Origin: Labilibaculum sp. DW002
GTDB lineage: Bacteria > Bacteroidota > Bacteroidia > Bacteroidales > Marinifilaceae
Direction: 5' to 3'
Assembly: GCF_029029525.1 (NCBI RefSeq)
Contig: NZ_JAKJSC010000006.1
Coordinates: forward strand, 124,001 to 188,000
DNA length: 64,000 nucleotides
Positions 597 to 62,941 of this stretch are shown piece after piece (the first letter of the stretch is position 1; each line of letters opens with the position of its first letter). Under the pieces are notes generated by a model. It was given only the letters and a program-made list of their open reading frames with translations, was not told the origin of the DNA and did no database searches. Both the position numbers and the translations under genes were made by a program.

Positions 597-2399
597 TTAA
601 TTGAAATATTTATAGACAGTTAAGGCCTTAGATTTTCCTAATTCTGTTTCCAGTTCTGCGATTGTGGCAATCCTCACATTATCTACCGACTTAAACCTTT
701 GGATTAACTTCTGAACTGATTTTGGTCCAATTCCTTCAATTTTGTCCAATTCTGAGCTAATAAACGCTTTTGACCGTTTTTGTCGATGGAAAGTAATTGC
801 AAAACGGTGCGATTCATTTCGCAGATGTTGAATGGTTTTAAGGGTTTCTGAATTCTTATCCAAATACAATGGATATGGATCACCGGGAAAATAGATCTCC
901 TCCAATTTTTTAGCAATACCAATAACCGATATCTTTCCTCTAAGATCTAGCTTATCTAAACTATTTAAAGCTGCACCCAACTGTCCTTTTCCACCATCAA
1001 TTAAAATCAATTGTGGTAAGCTCTTTCCTTCTTCAAGTAATCTTCGATATCTTCTGTAAATAATTTCTTCCATGGAAGCAAAATCATTTGCTCCAACAAC
1101 GGTCTTAATATTAAAATGGCGATAGTCTTTTTTGAATGGTCGCGCGTTCCTAAATACAACACAAGATGCAACCGGGTGTGTTCCTTGAATATTAGAATTA
1201 TCAAAACATTCAATATGTACTGGTGCATCCTTTAGGCGCAAATCAGTTTTCATAGTTTGAACAATTCTATCAGAATGGGACTGTTTTAATGATTTATCAC
1301 CCTTCTTTAACTTCTCGAGACGGTAATATTTCACATTCCGAAGCGAAAGGTCAAGTAATTTTCGCTTGTCACCACGTTGAGGAACTATAAAACGTATATT
1401 CTGAATTGGCAAATCCAATTCAAATGGAACCAATATCTCTTTTGCAGTACTAAATATTTTCTGACGAATTTCGGTTATTGCCAAAGCCAATAAATCTTCT
1501 TTCGATTCATCCAGCTTTTTCTTCATCTCGATTGTGTGTGCTTGGATGATGGCACCATTTACAACTTTCAAGAAATTAACGTAAGCAAAATTCTCATCAT
1601 CTAGAATTGAATAAATATCAATATTATTAATTGAGGGATTTACAATGGTAGATTTACTTTGATATTTTGCTAGTAGTTCAAGTTTTTCTTTAATGATATG
1701 AGCTTCCTCAAATTTAAAATCAGCAGCAAGAATTTGTATCTTTTCCTTTAAATGAGAAGTAACAGTTCCAATATTACCTTTTAAAATATTACGAATATCT
1801 TGAATCGTTTGCTCATAGTTTTCTCTGCTCTCCTTCCCTACACATGGCGCCTTACAATTACCGATATGGTATTCTAAACAAACTTTAAACTTTAAATCGC
1901 TAATGCCTTCATCTGTTAATCGCAAGTTACACGTTCGCAATTGATATAAAGAACGAATCATATCCATCAAAATTCGAACCATCTTAACACTTGTATAGGG
2001 ACCGAAATATTCCGAACCATCTTTCACCAAATGACGTGTTACCTGTACCCTTGGATAAGCTTCTTTCTTAATACAAATCCAAGGAAATGATTTGTCATCC
2101 TTTAAAAGAACATTGTAACGAGGTTGGTGTTTTTTTATCAGATTATTCTCTAATAATAACGCATCCTCTTCCGTCTCTACAACAATGTGTTTTATATCCA
2201 CAATTTTCCGAACCATGATATTGGTTTTCGCTGAATCGTGAACTTTATTAAAATAGGAAGCAACTCTTCTTTTGAGTCGCTTTGCTTTTCCTACATATAT
2301 AATCGTATTGTTCTCATCAAAGTATTGATATACGCCTGGCTCTTCAGGCAAAGCTGAAACCAGAGACTTTAAATGATCTATATTTTTGTTTTTTATCAC
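597..2399 (-). CDS. uvrC: UvrABC excinuclease subunit C
   Basis: UvrC makes both incisions around a bulky DNA lesion in nucleotide excision repair, after UvrA/UvrB mark the damage. The 600-residue product has the full family layout: an N-terminal GIY-YIG nuclease (PGVYQYF then IIYVGKAKRLKRR, residues about 19-45), a cysteine cluster near 175-190 (CLEYHIGNCKAPC), a UvrB-interacting UVR helix (FEEAHIIKEKLELL, about 230), an RNase H-like second nuclease (ECFDNSNIQGTHPVAS, about 398) and C-terminal helix-hairpin-helix repeats (IEGIGPKSVQKLI). Length is normal. It starts 26 bases after the stop of ade, so the two are probably cotranscribed, although the functions are unrelated. Confidence 0.97.
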   Translation of the reverse strand: MIKNKNIDHLKSLVSALPEEPGVYQYFDENNTIIYVGKAKRLKRRVASYFNKVHDSAKTNIMVRKIVDIKHIVVETEEDALLLENNLIKKHQPRYNVLLKDDKSFPWICIKKEAYPRVQVTRHLVKDGSEYFGPYTSVKMVRILMDMIRSLYQLRTCNLRLTDEGISDLKFKVCLEYHIGNCKAPCVGKESRENYEQTIQDIRNILKGNIGTVTSHLKEKIQILAADFKFEEAHIIKEKLELLAKYQSKSTIVNPSINNIDIYSILDDENFAYVNFLKVVNGAIIQAHTIEMKKKLDESKEDLLALAITEIRQKIFSTAKEILVPFELDLPIQNIRFIVPQRGDKRKLLDLSLRNVKYYRLEKLKKGDKSLKQSHSDRIVQTMKTDLRLKDAPVHIECFDNSNIQGTHPVASCVVFRNARPFKKDYRHFNIKTVVGANDFASMEEIIYRRYRRLLEEGKSLPQLILIDGGKGQLGAALNSLDKLDLRGKISVIGIAKKLEEIYFPGDPYPLYLDKNSETLKTIQHLRNESHRFAITFHRQKRSKAFISSELDKIEGIGPKSVQKLIQRFKSVDNVRIATIAELETELGKSKALTVYKYFN

Positions 2400-2425
2400 A
2401 GATTATAATTTTCCTCTAAGATAGC

Positions 2426-4069
2426 TTACTCTTCTGAAAAAAGATTAACCACTTTAAATTGATTTACGTCAAATAAGCCTTTATCCGATAATTTTAACTT
2501 TGGAATTACCAACAAAGACATAAATGCTAGCGTCATAAAAGGGGAATGAAAATTCGATCCAAAACCAGAGGCAAAATCACTTAAAACTTCGTAATCTTTA
2601 ATTAGATCCTCTCCTGTTTTATTAGACATTAAACCGGCTACTTCTAAATTGACACTTTCAGTTCTGCCTTCATTTGATGCAACAATCCCTCCCTTTATTT
2701 CTATTAAAGTATTAATCGCCTGTAATAAGTTTTCATCACTTGTTCCTACAGCAATAATGTTATGGCTATCATGTGCTATGCTTTCTGCAATAGCCCCTTT
2801 TTTATATCCAAAGCCTTTAGCAAATCCGACCACAGGTTTTCCATTATCGTAACGACTCATCACAACCATTTTCAGCAAATCATTCTCCACATCAGATATA
2901 ACATTTGAATCCTGAATCTTTGGCTCACACAAAATTGAATCCGTAATCAAATCACCATCCTTTACCAGCATCGTTCGAATTTTTCCATTTTGTGGTTCTA
3001 CTCGAATATCGGATAATTGAATTGGCTTACGACTAAAATTATTTAGAATGATCTCATTATTTACCTCAAATAAAACTTCCTTGTCTTTATAAATGCATTC
3101 CCCTTTTCGATAAGCCTGTTCAACCGAAAAAGAATCAAGATTATCAATTACGATAAAATCTGCGGCATCACCCACCTGAAGCAAACCCAAATTTAGACCA
3201 TAATGATGAATTGGATTATAGCTGGCAGCCCGAAGCAATGAAAACAAATCAAGTCCTTTTTTAAGTCCTTTTTTAATAAGGTAATTAATATGACCTCTTT
3301 CAAATAAATCATCAGGATGAGTATCATCTGTACATAACATGACTTTTTCAGGATGAGAATCAATTAAAGAATATAAAGCTTCAAAATCCTTTGCTGCGCT
3401 TCCCTCTCTAATTTGTATCTTCATTCCCAAATTAAGCTTCTCCAGAGCTTCTTCCATATTTGAACATTCATGATCTGCTGAAACTCCTGCTGCGACATAT
3501 TTCCGCAAGTCGTCCCCTTTTACACCTGGAGCGTGACCATCAATTTTCTTCCCTAACTTCTTTGTGGCAACAATTTTCTTCATCACCTCCAAATCTTCAT
3601 TTATAACACCGGGGTAATCCATTACCTCTGCCAAACAAACCACTTCTTCTCTCTTCAACAAACTTTCAACCTTATTTGCTCCTAACTTAAAACCCGAAGT
3701 TTCGAATGGCGTTGCAGGAACACAAGATGGCACTCCAAATCGAATTTCCAAGGGTGTCTTCCTGGCATCATTAATCATGAAGTCAATTCCAATCTCTCCT
3801 AATACATTTGCTATTTCATGAGGATCCGTAACAACTCCTAAAGTTCCTTTTCTTACAACTAAGTCTGCAAATCGGCTTGGTATTAAAAGAGAACTTTCAA
3901 TATGTACATGTGAATCAACCAAGCCTGGAAGAATATAACAATCCGGAACAGATTCCTTAGGAGTAATACTTACAATTACACCATCCTCCACTTTCACTTC
4001 TGCCTTTCGTATTTCACGAGAAATAACATCAATTACATTTCCTGCTATTGAAAAATTTTTATTTGCCAT
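2426..4069 (-). CDS. ade: Adenine deaminase
   Basis: A cytoplasmic amidohydrolase that converts adenine to hypoxanthine and ammonia in purine salvage. The 547-residue product carries the metal-binding signatures of the family: DSHVHIESS near residue 52, DGHAPG near 177, ADHEC near 198 and CTDDTHPDD near 247, followed by the C-terminal adenine deaminase domain (KGGIVASNEGRTESVNLEVAGLMS split over about residues 457-480). The length is slightly below that of the E. coli and Bacillus proteins. It lies between mnmG, across a parS and inverted-repeat region, and uvrC just downstream. The first codons (MANKNFSIAGNVIDV) fit the usual N-terminal beta-sandwich. Confidence 0.95.
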   Translation of the reverse strand: MANKNFSIAGNVIDVISREIRKAEVKVEDGVIVSITPKESVPDCYILPGLVDSHVHIESSLLIPSRFADLVVRKGTLGVVTDPHEIANVLGEIGIDFMINDARKTPLEIRFGVPSCVPATPFETSGFKLGANKVESLLKREEVVCLAEVMDYPGVINEDLEVMKKIVATKKLGKKIDGHAPGVKGDDLRKYVAAGVSADHECSNMEEALEKLNLGMKIQIREGSAAKDFEALYSLIDSHPEKVMLCTDDTHPDDLFERGHINYLIKKGLKKGLDLFSLLRAASYNPIHHYGLNLGLLQVGDAADFIVIDNLDSFSVEQAYRKGECIYKDKEVLFEVNNEIILNNFSRKPIQLSDIRVEPQNGKIRTMLVKDGDLITDSILCEPKIQDSNVISDVENDLLKMVVMSRYDNGKPVVGFAKGFGYKKGAIAESIAHDSHNIIAVGTSDENLLQAINTLIEIKGGIVASNEGRTESVNLEVAGLMSNKTGEDLIKDYEVLSDFASGFGSNFHSPFMTLAFMSLLVIPKLKLSDKGLFDVNQFKVVNLFSEE

Positions 4070-54198: not shown

Positions 54199-56184
54199 AT
54201 GAAAAAATTAACGGTTAAAATCTTAGGTCTGGCAATCTTAGCAATGCCTTTTTTATCAAGTTGTTCGGATGATGATGATGATCCAGTTCCTACTCCTGTA
54301 GAAGAGGTAATTGAATTGTTGCAAACTGGTAAAATGAAAGGTAAACTAAGCGAAAATTTTACGCTTAATGCAAGTATGCAATACGAACTTACAGGTTCAT
54401 TTATTGTTCCTGAAGGCTTAACACTTACAATTCCTGCAGGAACTGAAATTATTGCTGATAATGGTGGTACTGATGTTTATATTGCAGTATTAATGGGCGG
54501 AAAAATCAACATTAACGGTACTACATCAAGCCCTGTTGTTATGACTTCGGCGAATAGTAATGCAGGTGACTGGGGTGGATTAACCATTTGTGGTAAAGCT
54601 ACAACTACTGCTGGTGCCAATTCAGAAGCTGAAGTAGGTGGGTTTATATATGGTGGTTCCGATGATGCTGATAATTCAGGTTCAATAAAAAACTTGGTAA
54701 TTACAGGTACTGGAGCTCAGATTAACTCTGAATCGCAATACAATGGTGTTTCTTTTTACGCAGTAGGTTCTGGAACCACAGTTGAAAATGTAGCTGTAAT
54801 TAATGGTGCTGATGATGGTGTTGAATTTTTCGGTGGAACTGTTTCTGTAACGAACTTGTTCTTACAAAATAACGAAGATGACGCTATCGACTGGACCGAA
54901 GGATGGAGCGGAACAATTACCAATGCATATGTCGAGCATACAATTGAAGATTTCTCAACTGTTGTTGAAGGTGATAAAGTAAATAACAATCCAAAAATTA
55001 TAAACCTAACAGCTGTTTCAACAACTGGAGGAACTGCTTTACAATTCAAAAAAGAATCTGGTGCTACAATTACAGGTTTATCTTTAAGTGGATATGCTAA
55101 AAGTATCGATATGAAGGATAATGGTCCTTTAGCAAACGTAATTATTGAAGGCGCTGCAGCAGAAGTTGCAAATAGTTACAATACCGACGCGACGGTAGAT
55201 CCATCAAGTTGGACTTGGGTAGATGTTAAAGTTGCACAAGTTGAAGAATTATCGGGTAATGTAACAAGCGATGTTACTTTGGATGCTTCGAAAGCTTACC
55301 GTTTAACTAGCTCTTACATTGTACAAGATGGTGCTTCTTTAACAATACCGGCAGGAACTAAAATTCATGCCGATGCCGGAGGTACAGAAGTTTATATTGC
55401 TGTATTAATGGGCGGAACAATCAATATTAATGGAACTTCAGATAATCCTGTTGTTATCTCATCTGACCAAGGTCAGCCAGGTGACTGGGGTGGGTTAACC
55501 ATTTGTGGAAAAGCTACAACTACTGCCGGAGCAAACTCTGAAGCTGAGGTTGGCGGATTTATCTATGGTGGAACAACAGATGATGACAATTCAGGATCAA
55601 TTCAGTATTTAGTTATCAAAGGAACTGGTGCTCAAATTAACTCAGAATCACAATACAATGGTGTTTCTCTTTACGCTGTAGGTTCAGGTACAACAATCAA
55701 AAATGTAGCCGTAATTAATGGTTCTGATGATGGTGTAGAATTCTTTGGTGGCACTGTTTCGGTAAGCAATCTTTACTTGGAAAACAACGAAGATGATTCT
55801 GTAGACTGGACTGAAGGTTGGAATGGTACAGTGACTGACACTTACATTTCTCACACAATCGCTGGATTTTCTACTGCTTTCGAAGGAGATAAAATAAACA
55901 ACAATCCTAATTTTGTAAATGTAACAGCCATTTCTACCGTTGGAGGAACAGCTTTGCAATTTAAAAAAGAATCAGGTGCTACAATCACAGGTTTACACCT
56001 TGTAGGTTACGATGTTGATCTTGATATGAAAGATGCAGGCGCTTTAGCTAATGTACAAATTTCCGGTGCTAAGGCTGATGCAACATTACTTGCAGGAGAA
56101 ACTAAAAAATACACTTTAAATAGTGGCAAAGATGCTGCTAAGGTAGATATTTCAGGATGGTCATGGATCGAAGCTGATTTGTAA
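54199..56184 (+). CDS. Surface lipoprotein with two tandem beta-helix-like units
   Basis: A 661-residue lipoprotein: signal and lipobox (MPFLSSCSDDDDD, Cys about 22, followed by an acidic stretch like a surface-export signal), then two near-copies of a unit of about 310 residues (about 38-346 and 347-661; DNA 54310-55239 and 55240-56181). Both carry IPAGTxIxAD, GDWGGLTICGKATTT, SQYNGVSxYAVGSGTT, DDGVEFFGGTVSV and ESGATITGL. The turns rich in G, N and D suggest a right-handed beta-helix or similar repeat fold. Function unknown; a substrate-binding partner of the upstream TonB receptor is likely by context. Confidence 0.8.
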   Translation: MKKLTVKILGLAILAMPFLSSCSDDDDDPVPTPVEEVIELLQTGKMKGKLSENFTLNASMQYELTGSFIVPEGLTLTIPAGTEIIADNGGTDVYIAVLMGGKININGTTSSPVVMTSANSNAGDWGGLTICGKATTTAGANSEAEVGGFIYGGSDDADNSGSIKNLVITGTGAQINSESQYNGVSFYAVGSGTTVENVAVINGADDGVEFFGGTVSVTNLFLQNNEDDAIDWTEGWSGTITNAYVEHTIEDFSTVVEGDKVNNNPKIINLTAVSTTGGTALQFKKESGATITGLSLSGYAKSIDMKDNGPLANVIIEGAAAEVANSYNTDATVDPSSWTWVDVKVAQVEELSGNVTSDVTLDASKAYRLTSSYIVQDGASLTIPAGTKIHADAGGTEVYIAVLMGGTININGTSDNPVVISSDQGQPGDWGGLTICGKATTTAGANSEAEVGGFIYGGTTDDDNSGSIQYLVIKGTGAQINSESQYNGVSLYAVGSGTTIKNVAVINGSDDGVEFFGGTVSVSNLYLENNEDDSVDWTEGWNGTVTDTYISHTIAGFSTAFEGDKINNNPNFVNVTAISTVGGTALQFKKESGATITGLHLVGYDVDLDMKDAGALANVQISGAKADATLLAGETKKYTLNSGKDAAKVDISGWSWIEADL

Positions 56185-56699: not shown

Positions 56700-57836
56700 T
56701 TACTCATCCTCCACCCAAAAAAATTCAGACATTATATCATTTGATATAAAAACCCCTTCATCGCAAAGAATAAGCGAGTTCCCATCTTGTCGAACATGAT
56801 TAGATATTATGTATTTTTCAGCCTTCGCAAGGCAATGATTATACAATTGATCGCCAAAGTCTTTGCGAACAGTTTCCAAATCCATTCCCCAATAAGTACG
56901 TAAAGAAGTTAAGACAAAATCATTAAAACGATCGTAAAAACTCAAATGTTCCTTCTCTGAAAATTCAGCTTCCTCTTTAATTGCTTTTATATACTTGTAA
57001 TTATGGGCAATATTCCACTCTCTCTCCTTTAAATTAAAAGAATGCGCCGATGGTCCAATTCCCAAGTATTTCTCTTGTTTCCAATAACTTGAATTGTGTT
57101 TTGAAATAAATCCTTCTTTAGAAAAATTAGAAATCTCATAATGATGAAATCCATTTTCTCGTGCTTTGTCTATCAAGTATTTAAATTGTTCAAAACTCTG
57201 TTCTTCATCCAACTCTACCAATTGTCCTTTTTCCAATTTTTTGGTGAAAATGGTGTTCGGATCGAACATTAAATGATAAGAAGAGATGTGTTGAATATCC
57301 AATTCAAAAACCAAGTCTAAATTCTCTATCCATTTCTCCATACTTAAGCCTGGAACCCCGTAAATCTGGTCAACAGAGATATTATCAAAGCCAAACTCCT
57401 GAGCCCTGCGAATAGCCTCAAACGCCTCTTTTCCAGTATGCCTTCGATTCATCAAAATCAAATCTTCATCATGAAAAGACTGAATTCCAACACTAAGTCG
57501 GTTTACAGGAGTATTTTGCAAAGCTCTTAAATAAGTTTCGCTTAAATCATCTGGATTAGCTTCTAAGGTAATTTCAGCATCCGAGTCAATAGTAAAGTAT
57601 TTGGCCACTTCATCAATCAAAGATTCAATTTCATGTGGCTGATAAATAGAAGGTGTTCCGCCACCAAAGTAAATAGTAGCAACCGATTCCTCACCCAAAT
57701 AATCTTTTCTGTATTTTAATTCCTTTTTAAAACACTCCAACATCTCTTCTTTTGCCTGTAAAGAGATACTCTTGTGAAAAGCACAGTAGTGGCAAAGTTG
57801 CTTGCAAAATGGAATGTGAAAATATACTCCCGACAT
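56700..57836 (-). CDS. hemW: HemW-type radical SAM protein (heme chaperone)
   Basis: A 378-residue radical SAM protein related to oxygen-independent coproporphyrinogen oxidase but of the HemW type. It starts with YFHIPFCKQLCHYCAF, where the CxxxCxxC cluster ligands sit at about residues 10-17; the extra Cys that HemN has after CxxxCxxC is absent (CAF not CxC), which favours a heme-carrying role over oxidase activity. GGGTPSIY (about 56) is the SAM-binding GGE-like segment, and a C-terminal HemN domain follows (about 300-375). Length is normal for HemW. It is transcribed with the rhodanese gene. Confidence 0.93.
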   Translation of the reverse strand: MSGVYFHIPFCKQLCHYCAFHKSISLQAKEEMLECFKKELKYRKDYLGEESVATIYFGGGTPSIYQPHEIESLIDEVAKYFTIDSDAEITLEANPDDLSETYLRALQNTPVNRLSVGIQSFHDEDLILMNRRHTGKEAFEAIRRAQEFGFDNISVDQIYGVPGLSMEKWIENLDLVFELDIQHISSYHLMFDPNTIFTKKLEKGQLVELDEEQSFEQFKYLIDKARENGFHHYEISNFSKEGFISKHNSSYWKQEKYLGIGPSAHSFNLKEREWNIAHNYKYIKAIKEEAEFSEKEHLSFYDRFNDFVLTSLRTYWGMDLETVRKDFGDQLYNHCLAKAEKYIISNHVRQDGNSLILCDEGVFISNDIMSEFFWVEDE

Positions 57837-58769: not shown

Positions 58770-58798
58770 AAAAGGGATCATTTAGATCCCTTTTTTTT
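58770..58798. terminator. Terminator shared by the head-GIN and fusion genes
   Basis: Perfect 9-bp stem AAAGGGATC (58771-58779), ATTTA loop, GATCCCTTT (58785-58793), with a T-run on the plus strand. The stop codon of the convergent glycosyltransferase fusion gene lies inside the stem and loop, and a run of A precedes it for the minus strand only weakly. Confidence 0.85.
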
Positions 58799-61700
58799 AT
58801 AGCCTATAATTGCATTCGAAACTGCTCTTGGTTCAGGCGGTAAAGAGTAAATATTTCGTTCGTACTGAGAATTGTAAGGTGAAATATTAAGTGTTTCCCC
58901 ATTTACGACTAAGGTTGAACTTCCTCCTGGATCAAATCCCATTGCTTTCTGCATGCCATTTTGCAATAGGATATCTGCCATATCATGATGTCTAGCTCCT
59001 ACTGATTCGCGAATTCTACCATTAATAGTTAAAACACTCAAATCCCCTTTTGCATCAATTCCTACGGCAATCTTAGGTCCACGCATATCCGTAAAATCCA
59101 AACGAGCGGCTTGTGTTTTTATCGAATTACTTGTTTTCCAACCTTCCATTTCCATATCAATACATTGCTCACCATTCTCTAATAACATTGGTCCTGCTTC
59201 AACAGCATGAAGTACATGCTCCAATCCGTTTACATGGATTTTTAGTTTGGTATCAACTTCTGGTAGCTTCTTTTTTAGAATGCTTTTGGGTATTGACAGA
59301 GTCAAACCAACTGGTATTTGACAAATTGATTCTTGATCTTTTATTACTTCTTTAACGGTACTTCCAGCCAAACGAATCAAAATACAATTTGCAGCGGGAA
59401 TTGTTTCTTCACCATACATTAAATCAAAATAGCAACAATTTTCCTCGTCCCAATTGTTGTAGTTTTCACTCGAAAACTCGTATTCAATTCCTTCAATTGT
59501 TACTTTCAATCCAGATTTACAATTTACTCTTTGCAGATCGATCTGACCATCTTTTGTAATCAACAAAGCTGGCTTATTAAATAAGGGAGCACTCAACAAT
59601 TCACCATCAGATATCAATAAGCCAAGCGGTGATCCAATATACGATTCTGGTAATCCTAGCTTACCAACCAACTCTGGATTTAAGATATATCCACCGTTCC
59701 AAGCAATTTTTGCTTCTGCTTGATTTTCCAATTCAAAATCCTTCACAAAATCAACTACCGTTTTTGTTTTTGGGGAACTAATGGCTGCAAATTCCCAATC
59801 TTTAGAATCTAAATTTGCCTTAGCCATAACCCCATTCCATGGATTACCATCTTCATAAATTCCAGTAACAAAAGAATAATTGACTTCCTTATTCTCCTTT
59901 TCATTTGAGGAAAGCTTATTCAAAACCAATTTTAGTGGCGACCCACTTGTAAGTGCATCTTCTTTTATTGTTTCAAAAACTTTATCTTCTCCATGCTTTT
60001 CACAAAGTGATTTAAAAAGCTGTGAATGCAATAAGTCTGAAAAATCTTTCGATGTTTGAATTGGAGTTGGGTAGGCCAAGGTAGTTCTTACCCCAGCTGG
60101 CACATACTGAATGTATCCTGTTCCATTCGGAATTCCCATTATATTGGCTGCCAAATCTGTTGTTACCATACCAATGTGAAAACGATCAATATTCAAAATA
60201 TCGGTCATAAAAGTGGCATTCCTTCTATTGGAAATCAGATATCCACCTTGTTCCATTACTTCTCGTAAAACAGCTATTGCTTTCTCTCCCATTTGTGGAA
60301 TATGAATCCCTAATGTTAAAGACTCATTTGTAATTACTTGAAGAATATCATGATCATAGAGTAATTTCAATTCTTCATCAAATCCACTCTCAATAAAATT
60401 CTTAATATCTCTTTTAGTTGTCCAATTGGTAAGGGCTGTTTTAGGAGCAAAAACATAAATATTTGCAATTTTTTTATTTTCAATTACTTCTAAAGTAATT
60501 GGTTCGTGCATATCAATTCCAAATCTATTTTTAATTGAATTCAGCACAAAATACTCCAATTCATACTTCACATATTTACCTGGAAAATATGCCATCGGAA
60601 CATTCTCTTTTAATTTTTCAAATAAAAATTTTCGATCGTCAATGGCTATTTCAGAACATGAGGTTAATTGCGATAAAGCCAAGTTTCTATCTAAAAAGAA
60701 ACGAGATGCACCATTCACTTTACGACCAACCTTCTCTGTTAAAATTTCCGATTGTAAAACGTTAACCATACCAGACAATTCCTGATGTGTTAAATCGTGA
60801 AATGCATAATGATTCTTGTTCCTATGACGATAAGTAAAGGAATGATCATGCCTAATATCCAATTCATTTTTACGAATCAAAAACAAATTATCTACTGCAT
60901 TATAAAAGTCATGAACGATTTCTTCACTTAAGCTATCTCTTTTCGGATGTTCTAAAATTTGCTTTCGCGCAAAGTAAAAAATAAACCCTTTTATTTCTTG
61001 CTCCTCTTTTCGAAATGCACTTGGATCTATCAAAGATTTCAAATAAAGCATTAAACCCAATCGTCCATAACCAGGTAAATAATGCCTATTTTTTGTATTC
61101 AGTAAAGCTTCGGTATCCGCATTTTTGAAGTTCAGTTTTTCAGTAAAATCATCAAATAAAACTTCCACACTAGTTAAATTTTCCGTATTCGACTTTAATT
61201 GATAATGTAGCTTTTCCAAAATGATATTAATACTCAAATCGAGGGAGCTAAAACTATAGCGCTTTGCTAAAACATCCTTATTGTGTCTAACATGCTTATG
61301 ATGAAGATGCGGAAAAAACACTTTCTCAATCACCTCTTGAACATGAGAATCATTAATTTTCTGACCTTCAAATTCAATTACCCGTAAGCGTTCATTTTCT
61401 GGTAAATGTTCACCTATTACTTCTGAATAAACATTTTCTGGTTGATACCTTCTGCAGAAAATTGGAATACCTGCTGCGGCCGATTCAATAATAGGCAAGC
61501 CTCTTCCTTCTGTTTTCGATGGCAAAAGAACCAAAGATGAAATACTATACAATTCTGGAATTCCAATCGGATTTTCAAAATGGTCTTTAAAGCGCTTTTT
61601 ATCCATTTCACTAAACAAGAATCCGAGGTATATTCTTTTCCTAAATTCAATATCTATTGATTCTAATAAGGCTTCAAAACGTTGTACTAATTTCACGTAG

Positions 61701-62941
61701 TAAGGATATTGTCCTGAAGGAATAGGTCCTGTTACTAAAATGGTAATCTTTAAATCATCCGACTCACGAACCTTAGTTTGCAGACTTTTCACTTCGAACA
61801 TTTTCCTAATTAATTCGAAATTTATTTCAATTCGCTTTCTAGAAACAACTCGTGTTGGTTGCAAAAAAATGATATTTTCCGAAAGAAATTTATGCATTGC
61901 TTTCGTCTTGTACCCTATATAAATTGGTTCTGGATTTTTCCGATTGACCAATTTATAATCCAATACATCTTTAACGGAATAGCTAATTAATGCATCCTCA
62001 TTATATCTACTCAGCATTTTTTCCATCTGATACATGGAGTTTATTCTGCTGCGTTTATTAATATTTGAATAATCTCTTATTTCTACAGCTGTTCCAATTT
62101 CAGTAACATTAGCTGGGTTGTGTCCATTCTTATATATTAGATGTTCACTTTGCTTCCTATTGATATTTACATTCATCCACGAACGAGATTCCCATGGATA
62201 CAATACTTCTATTATTGAAAAAACCTCTCCTAAATGTGAATTCATAAAAAAGAAATCACGTGGTCCTTTTTTTAATCCCTTTACTTCTTTATCTATTTCG
62301 GAATTACCACCTTCCCAATAAAAATCATGATTGTTATTAATTACAGGAATACCCATAAATTCCGAAACCAAAACATTTGCCAAGGCCAGAGAAACGTTCC
62401 CAGGATTAGAACAGGCATTGATTAGATATAACATTCCAATGTCATTCTCCTCAATGTATTTTCCTAACTTTTCACAAATTAATAATGTTTGGGACCAAAA
62501 CTTAATAATCAGTTCATTATACTTCTTACTTCCTCTTTCTAATTTTGTAAAAAAGAAATCTTTATACAAAGTCCAATCATCGAAACCTTGTATTTCCTCG
62601 ATAGTAAATGTTTTTGTTTTTGAATCTATCAGTTTATCTGACTCTGGATAAAACTTCCCTGAAATATAATGTACAGGAAGATTTTTGGCTATGTTATTAC
62701 GAAAAGCTTTAGCATACTTTTCTATTTCAATACTAACCCCATCAATTGAAAAATAAAAAGTAATAAAGGCTATTCCTTTTGTATTAAGATTAGATTTAAA
62801 GCTAGTAAATGATTGATTGAACTCAACTACTGGTGTATGTTTATTCTCCTTAAATCGATCAATAAATAAACCTAGATCGAACCAAGTTTTTATTTTTTCA
62901 TTACTTAAAATATGCATCATTTCAGCAGTAGAATTCCTCAT
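58778..62941 (-). CDS. Glycosyltransferase - phosphodiester glycosidase (NAGPA) fusion protein
   Basis: A 1387-residue protein without a signal peptide. Residues about 50-590 look like a GT-B glycosyltransferase of the GT4 kind: an early DGVSIEIEKYAKAFR sugar-donor-type segment, IPVINNNHDFYWEGG, and the C-terminal EGRGLPIIESAAAGIP motif (about 473-490). A helical middle region (about 590-1040) matches nothing I know. The C-terminus (about 1045-1385) is a phosphodiester glycosidase/NAGPA (DUF2233) domain: IAWNGGYILNPE near 1080, VLTINGR, FDPGGSSTLVVNGE near 1336 and the final RAVSNAIIGYK. The combination of making and cutting activities in one chain is unusual. It stands alone; its product cannot be named. 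Confidence 0.8.
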   Translation of the reverse strand: MRNSTAEMMHILSNEKIKTWFDLGLFIDRFKENKHTPVVEFNQSFTSFKSNLNTKGIAFITFYFSIDGVSIEIEKYAKAFRNNIAKNLPVHYISGKFYPESDKLIDSKTKTFTIEEIQGFDDWTLYKDFFFTKLERGSKKYNELIIKFWSQTLLICEKLGKYIEENDIGMLYLINACSNPGNVSLALANVLVSEFMGIPVINNNHDFYWEGGNSEIDKEVKGLKKGPRDFFFMNSHLGEVFSIIEVLYPWESRSWMNVNINRKQSEHLIYKNGHNPANVTEIGTAVEIRDYSNINKRSRINSMYQMEKMLSRYNEDALISYSVKDVLDYKLVNRKNPEPIYIGYKTKAMHKFLSENIIFLQPTRVVSRKRIEINFELIRKMFEVKSLQTKVRESDDLKITILVTGPIPSGQYPYYVKLVQRFEALLESIDIEFRKRIYLGFLFSEMDKKRFKDHFENPIGIPELYSISSLVLLPSKTEGRGLPIIESAAAGIPIFCRRYQPENVYSEVIGEHLPENERLRVIEFEGQKINDSHVQEVIEKVFFPHLHHKHVRHNKDVLAKRYSFSSLDLSINIILEKLHYQLKSNTENLTSVEVLFDDFTEKLNFKNADTEALLNTKNRHYLPGYGRLGLMLYLKSLIDPSAFRKEEQEIKGFIFYFARKQILEHPKRDSLSEEIVHDFYNAVDNLFLIRKNELDIRHDHSFTYRHRNKNHYAFHDLTHQELSGMVNVLQSEILTEKVGRKVNGASRFFLDRNLALSQLTSCSEIAIDDRKFLFEKLKENVPMAYFPGKYVKYELEYFVLNSIKNRFGIDMHEPITLEVIENKKIANIYVFAPKTALTNWTTKRDIKNFIESGFDEELKLLYDHDILQVITNESLTLGIHIPQMGEKAIAVLREVMEQGGYLISNRRNATFMTDILNIDRFHIGMVTTDLAANIMGIPNGTGYIQYVPAGVRTTLAYPTPIQTSKDFSDLLHSQLFKSLCEKHGEDKVFETIKEDALTSGSPLKLVLNKLSSNEKENKEVNYSFVTGIYEDGNPWNGVMAKANLDSKDWEFAAISSPKTKTVVDFVKDFELENQAEAKIAWNGGYILNPELVGKLGLPESYIGSPLGLLISDGELLSAPLFNKPALLITKDGQIDLQRVNCKSGLKVTIEGIEYEFSSENYNNWDEENCCYFDLMYGEETIPAANCILIRLAGSTVKEVIKDQESICQIPVGLTLSIPKSILKKKLPEVDTKLKIHVNGLEHVLHAVEAGPMLLENGEQCIDMEMEGWKTSNSIKTQAARLDFTDMRGPKIAVGIDAKGDLSVLTINGRIRESVGARHHDMADILLQNGMQKAMGFDPGGSSTLVVNGETLNISPYNSQYERNIYSLPPEPRAVSNAIIGYKKKGSK

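Follow-up and report, generated by a model that had tools for sequence, protein, structure and literature searches.

A three-domain glycosyltransferase fusion and its GT4 partner gene, a candidate glycoside-building system of Bacteroidota

Introduction

What might a bacterium build with a polypeptide in which a sugar-transferring domain is covalently joined to a relative of the phosphodiester glycosidases? The question is raised by a gene, here termed F, in a stretch of 64,000 nucleotides from Labilibaculum sp. DW002 (Bacteroidota, Marinifilaceae; contig NZ_JAKJSC010000006.1, positions 124,001 to 188,000), referred to below as the window. F fuses a GT4-type glycosyltransferase (GT) domain, a domain of the DUF89-type fold and a NAGPA-type domain, and is accompanied by a separate GT4 gene, here termed P. 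Our preferred reading, which we hold to be a little short of probable, is that F, as a biosynthetic enzyme of several domains, works in the cytoplasm and builds a small soluble glycoside together with P. Each domain of F is of known fold; searches of open-licence papers yielded no description of their combination, of the changed signature of the NAGPA-type domain or of the fixed partner.

F is a conserved gene of three domains

The features on which the argument rests are the following (window coordinates, except for P).

58778..62941 (-): gene F, the GT4/DUF89-fold/NAGPA fusion; an open reading frame (ORF) of 1387 amino acids with an ATG start
61196..62797 (-): GT-B domain, residues 49-582; HepE (4xsu), Z 17.4, root-mean-square deviation (rmsd) 4.2, 357 residues aligned
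60095..61129 (-): DUF89-type fold, residues 605-949; At2g17340 (1xfi), Z 20.4, rmsd 3.7, 296 residues aligned
58781..59896 (-): NAGPA-type domain, residues 1016-1387; PF09992 63.2 bits; 3ohg Z 24.4, 6pku Z 24.1
G000:C3:71513-72802: gene P, a separate GT4 gene of 430 amino acids on contig C3 of the same genome

Full-length homologues of F have a uniform length and domain order in an alignment of 75 rows, comprising the window gene and 74 loci, from which ORFs shorter than 1370 amino acids were excluded and two copies of the window gene (L001, L038) omitted, and which retains near-copies where one species was represented by two sources. One of the omitted copies, from a Labilibaculum metagenome-assembled genome (MAG; L038), encodes a protein 99% identical to F. 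Against a homologue with 72% identity (L027), codons differ 334, 160 and 705 times at positions 1, 2 and 3, respectively, with 463 codons changed synonymously only and 381 changed in the encoded amino acid. Given this codon-position bias and the shared length and order of the homologues, F is a conserved coding gene and not a chance or misread frame. Near-invariant positions make up 29.6% of the NAGPA segment, the highest share of the four segments compared, 21.9% of the GT segment, and 17.0 and 12.1% of the middle (75-row alignment).

Of 115 matching stretches the 80 best were kept, corresponding to 79 distinct F loci, of which 67 are labelled as Bacteroidota, 4 as Calditrichota, 2 as Chlorobiota, and 1 each as Planctomycetota, Pseudomonadota and Thermodesulfobacteriota, with 3 unnamed. 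Loci outside Bacteroidota all come from MAGs, so binning errors are possible there. Cultured genera with F include Marinifilum, Winogradskyella and Lutibacter. Among 395 Bacteroidota genomes sampled across the phylum, full-length F was found in the genome of the window only (at most two candidates scored per genome), and the same was true of the middle domain, split or stand-alone (at most four candidates scored per genome). The trait is therefore patchy.

Structures were predicted as two overlapping AlphaFold2 models built from 36 sequences each, covering residues 1-1015 (mean predicted local distance difference test score, pLDDT, 85.2) and 575-1387 (mean pLDDT 84.3). They were compared with the PDB only, the 1000 best PDB chains from Foldseek being realigned. 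The result agrees in most points with an earlier note on this DNA, which had read F as a single gene joining an N-terminal GT4-like transferase to a NAGPA-type domain, with no signal peptide, and had let the first assignment depend on the N-terminal part matching a GT fold. That part matches HepE and carries the motifs of GT4 enzymes in all 75 rows, the NAGPA-type domain is found by both profile and fold (Z 24-25), and the gene is intact.

No export signal is evident at the N-terminus of F, as judged by eye only, and P likewise has none that is evident. The most hydrophobic stretch of 19 residues in F has a mean of 1.84 at residue 183, reaching 2.29 in other members of the family; because the model places it within the core of the GT domain (helix 183-196, strand 200-204), it was not taken as a membrane helix. 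Judging from its sequence, F may well work in the cytoplasm.

A separate glycosyltransferase gene accompanies F

Among 59 related genomes, full-length F is present in eight, and a strong match to P (at least 590 bits) occurs in the same eight, the remaining 51 having none. Six of the eight belong to one family, so they are not independent. Weaker matches to P reach 181 bits in a genome with F (G006) and 143 bits in one without it (G011), and at most 56 bits elsewhere. At the level of the 79 loci, 55 have P close to F: in 41 it is upstream and on the strand of F, in 14 downstream and on the opposite strand. The stop-to-start distance of upstream P ranges from -4 to 373 bp and is 30 bp or less in 31 of the 41, starts being set at the first Met of each frame. 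When only loci outside Marinifilaceae with at least 1.3 kb of upstream and 2.7 kb of downstream flank are counted, P is near F in 36/38. Pairwise distances of P and F correlate over 52 loci (r = 0.97, uncorrected for species history). With so fixed a GT4 partner, F looks like part of a biosynthetic pathway and less like an enzyme acting by itself.

In a tree computed quickly from 83 rows, 44 F domains fall on one side of a branch (support in the Shimodaira-Hasegawa-like approximate likelihood ratio test, SH-aLRT, 98) and 34 P proteins do likewise (SH-aLRT 100). Branches in this tree are long, and P is placed beside MggS-like proteins with a support of only 13. The motif HDFYWE is common to F and P; its counterpart in two proteins closer to MggS is HDFHWE.

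In many loci the match extended over 5.4 kb, longer than the 4.2 kb of F. An inserted domain was considered and rejected as the cause, tblastn having merged the separate gene P with F.

Several features of the surroundings of P are worth recording. In a MAG of Caldithrix, two P genes stand in tandem before F (L086:302-1606 (+) and 1614-2987 (+)), and they may carry out two successive transfers. A gene for a HemW-like radical SAM protein lies near F in the window (56700-57836 (-)), and in other Bacteroidales loci (e.g. L031) it directly follows F and is itself followed by P; P may have moved away from F in Marinifilaceae. In the genome of the window, a gene resembling mannose-1-phosphate guanylyltransferases (L154:14173-15258 (+); NTP_transferase and ManC beta-helix) is located 3.4 kb from P, and GDP-mannose is a possible donor. 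A coiled-coil protein of ~300 amino acids without a clear family adjoins P in several Bacteroidales loci (L031:12608-13519 (-) and eight others), and neighbours of P with 316 and 304 amino acids are unrelated to each other.

The GT site looks intact

All listed structural matches over residues 49-582 are GT-B enzymes. A Rickettsia GT, BshA, WaaG, PimB' and trehalose-phosphate synthases follow close behind HepE, so the order of the matches is not informative. The Pfam family Glycos_transf_1 (PF00534) covers only residues 461-499 of F, at 26.6 bits against a cut-off of 26.4. E-x7-E and R-x4-K are the donor-site motifs of GT4 enzymes, and the first is found here:

61484..61510 (-): E-x7-E motif (E478-E486) of the GT domain, EGRGLPxxE in 75/75 rows

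Both motifs are present in every row, as are the longer signatures NNNHDFYWE, QPTRxxxRK and EGRGLPxxE, and on this pattern of conservation the GT site of F looks intact.

The middle of F is predicted to adopt a DUF89-type fold

The earlier note had described the ~450 residues between the outer domains as unknown and helical. Helices are indeed present, and the AlphaFold2 models also contain an alpha/beta domain of the DUF89 type, so that the region is not merely helical. In the model of residues 575-1387, PH1575 matches residues 605-949 with Z 18.7 (rmsd 2.9, 245 residues aligned) and a third DUF89 entry with Z 17.3; the fold is recovered in the model of residues 1-1015, with Z 16.3, 15.9 and 15.3 to three DUF89 entries, 15.9 being the value for At2g17340. 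The alpha/beta domain of the DUF89 type, a fold of metabolite phosphatases, is modelled here with confidence.

Sequence methods did not detect this relationship. Pfam DUF89 (PF01937) matched 0/44 members of the F family at E ≤ 1, a profile search of PDB sequences returned two chance-level matches of which neither was a DUF89 protein, and an hhalign comparison with 11 proteins that are genuinely DUF89 (picked from 17 loci, near-copies and two fragments omitted) gave a probability of 1.5% (E 0.033). The link to DUF89 is accordingly one of fold alone.

DUF89 phosphatases require two conserved Asp (PMC9352595). In the genuine DUF89 set, D155-N156 and N186-D187 are invariant. When strands are matched by their order, the corresponding strand ends of F carry D768 (D in 70 and N in 4 of the 75 rows) and D769 (D in 55, N in 13, H in 6), and after the next strand F has E794 and E796 where DUF89 has Asp. 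A different set of residues is constant in the middle domain, namely D639, S641, R644, D699, R705, R707, E721, D914 and R952 (75/75 rows each), with H700 near-invariant as well. This constancy suggests that the domain may have a pocket of its own.

Canonical DUF89 genes were also encountered. The genome of the window has one (GDN...IND motifs), and in nine loci (L140-L148) such a gene lies beside that of a P-loop ATPase of MinD/Mrp appearance (SGKGGTGKTT), as at L142:1465-2322 (-) and 600-1472 (-).

The NAGPA-type domain has a changed signature

The C-terminal domain is recognizable by sequence, PF09992 covering residues 1241-1364 (E 4.6e-17, cut-off 25 bits), and its best fold match, from about residue 1016, is 5h3k (Z 25.5). 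Its signature was compared between 44 fusion rows and 33 other NAGPA proteins, one per locus (L011, L020-L022, L104-L132), the latter being a non-random sample because they were found by similarity to F. Three motifs differ:

59066..59083 (-): RGPKIA (1287-1292), where others have PRTA; K1290 in 44/44 fusion rows, R in 33/33 others
59015..59023 (-): NGR (1307-1309), where others have DGR; N1307 in 44/44 fusion rows, D in 30/33 others
58916..58936 (-): FDPGGSS (1336-1342), where others have xDGGGS; P1338 in 44/44 fusion rows, G in 33/33 others

Two further positions follow the same pattern, 1335 (G in 44/44 fusion rows, N in 32/33 others) and 1318 (H in 44/44, L in 26/33). P1289, G1308, R1309, G1315, D1337, G1339, G1340 and S1341 are kept in both groups, and R1309, E1312, H1318 and D1337 are near-invariant in the NAGPA segment of F. 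Across the aligned sequences, the NAGPA signature is altered family-wide in the fusion. Loss of the DGR Asp is not unique to F, since it is also missing from the aligned row of Slr0280. NGG[FYW] was rejected as a common NAGPA signature, being present in 75/75 fusion rows but in just 8/33 of the other proteins.

The earlier note had proposed that F may make and trim a single glycan, or may transfer a sugar by way of a phosphodiester. The altered signature argues against an ordinary NAGPA hydrolase. That the domain nevertheless retains phosphodiester-glycosidase hydrolysis of the NAGPA type is, in our view, unlikely. The fold, the profile match and the kept D1337, G1339, G1340 and S1341 are what such an activity would lead one to expect, but K1290, N1307, P1338 and H1318 replace constant or nearly constant residues of the other NAGPA proteins, and no export signal was seen in F by eye. 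Lipid-carrier, flippase and polymerase genes, moreover, were not found as constant neighbours in the loci, part of which have short flanks. Many of the 33 other NAGPA proteins start with a hydrophobic leader (by eye). One of the ordinary kind is encoded by a second NAGPA gene in the genome of the window (L021:733-1929 (+), on G000:C10; 116 bits), whose product begins with such a leader.

What F and P may make

In the system we propose, P would act first, forming one glycosidic bond, and the GT domain of F would add the next. The NAGPA-type domain, either a modified glycosidase or a transferase, would have as its substrate a cytosolic sugar phosphodiester, be it a glycosyl-phosphate intermediate or a nucleotide sugar, and the DUF89-fold domain might bind or dephosphorylate an intermediate or only serve as a scaffold. 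Given the mainly marine spread, a compatible solute is the most likely kind of product, perhaps an osmolyte. Nucleotide sugars can be substrates at a NAGPA site, since UDP-GlcNAc is hydrolysed by the human enzyme (PMC12024695). A bolder version, which we consider doubtful, is that the NAGPA fold, once that of an exported hydrolase, has become a synthetic enzyme of the cytoplasm and passes a sugar from a phosphodiester donor, such as a nucleotide sugar, to an acceptor. F would then unite a GT-B centre and a second, unrelated centre of glycosyl transfer, with a DUF89 fold put to new use as the bridge between them, and the glycoside that marine bacteria make with F and P would be one not yet described.

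A number of observations weigh against a joint biosynthetic role of F and P. Two loci (L032, L096) have enough flank and yet no P, and P adjoins F in 0/8 loci of Marinifilaceae, the family of the window itself. Clustering of neighbouring genes revealed no third constant pathway gene beside the pair, only lineage synteny. In the strand-order comparison of the 75 rows, the metal triad of DUF89 is not recognizable in F. The marine link derives from the presumed habitats of the named genera. Scores against the mannosylglucosylglycerate synthase family NF041101 are low: P matches it over its full length at 206.4 of 640 bits, below threshold, and F at 35.8 of the 640-bit cut-off. The known enzymes that make the acceptor in that pathway were not found either, with MpgS (PF09488) in 0/59 genomes and GpgS (NF010496), sought in the genome of the window, reaching at best 40.5 of 262 bits.

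The unrecognizable triad and the replaced NAGPA residues would suit a protein that is a glycosyltransferase only, its DUF89-fold and NAGPA-type domains having lost catalysis and serving as scaffold or regulatory sensors. We regard this as improbable, as near-invariant polar residues persist in the middle (D639, R644, D699, H700, R705, R707, E721, D914, R952) and in the NAGPA-type domain (R1309, E1312, H1318, D1337), and it is the NAGPA segment that has the highest near-invariant share.

Synthesis of mannosylglucosylglycerate by P and F through the route known from thermophiles is very unlikely and was dropped: a marine planctomycete, Rhodopirellula baltica, is known to contain the solute (PMC3694870), and P is a full-length match to the synthase family, but that match is sub-threshold, no F or P exceeds the NF041101 cut-off in the 59 genomes, GpgS and MpgS were not found, and the route leaves the NAGPA-type and DUF89-fold domains unexplained. 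Separately, two genomes carry another GT4 gene nearer to NF041101 (L157, G006:C1:1959191, 430 of 640 bits; L158, G011:C1:2456187, 421 of 640 bits), and one of these two genomes is without F.

Roles outside metabolism were also considered. A defence-system role was rejected, F and P having no match in PADLOC at E ≤ 0.01, as was carriage by phages or plasmids, since tblastn (E 1e-5) against 50,697 records of phages and 72,556 of plasmids gave no match. Elsewhere in the window, a gene at 54199-56184 (+), following that of a TonB-dependent receptor, encodes a secreted-looking protein of 661 amino acids whose two halves resemble each other and which matches nothing in Pfam at E ≤ 0.001.

If joint synthesis of a glycoside by F and P is correct, a two-gene pathway without an assigned product exists across many mostly marine Bacteroidota, and both the NAGPA fold and the DUF89 fold have acquired functions in the cytoplasm that the papers found do not describe. 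The F-P system is small and present in cultured genera.

Comparison with known systems

Four groups of enzymes resemble parts of F. With the retaining GT4 glycosyltransferases of the mannosylglucosylglycerate-synthase-like family (NF041101), F has in common the GT-B fold, E-x7-E, R-x4-K and HDFxWE. It differs from them in its score (36 bits of the 640 cut-off, with P at 206) and in the fusion of the GT to two further domains. The DUF89/ARMT1-like metabolite phosphatases (PF01937; At2g17340, PH1575) share the fold of the middle domain, with Z 20.4 and 18.7, whereas F lacks a profile match in 44 members and a recognizable metal triad. The NAGPA/DUF2233 phosphodiester glycosidases (PF09992), among them the vertebrate uncovering enzyme (6pku), BACOVA_00430 (3ohg) and Slr0280 (5h3k), have the fold of the C-terminal domain (Z 24-25) and its D-x-G-G-S core; in F, by contrast, PRTA, DGR and DGGGS are changed, an export signal was not seen by eye, and a GT is attached. 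An analogy in overall design is offered by the fused synthase-phosphatases that make glycoside osmolytes, such as the bifunctional mannosylglycerate synthase, where a GT is joined to a phosphatase-type domain for the production of a soluble glycoside. These fusions draw on other GT and phosphatase families and have no NAGPA domain, whereas in F a NAGPA-type domain is part of the same polypeptide chain.

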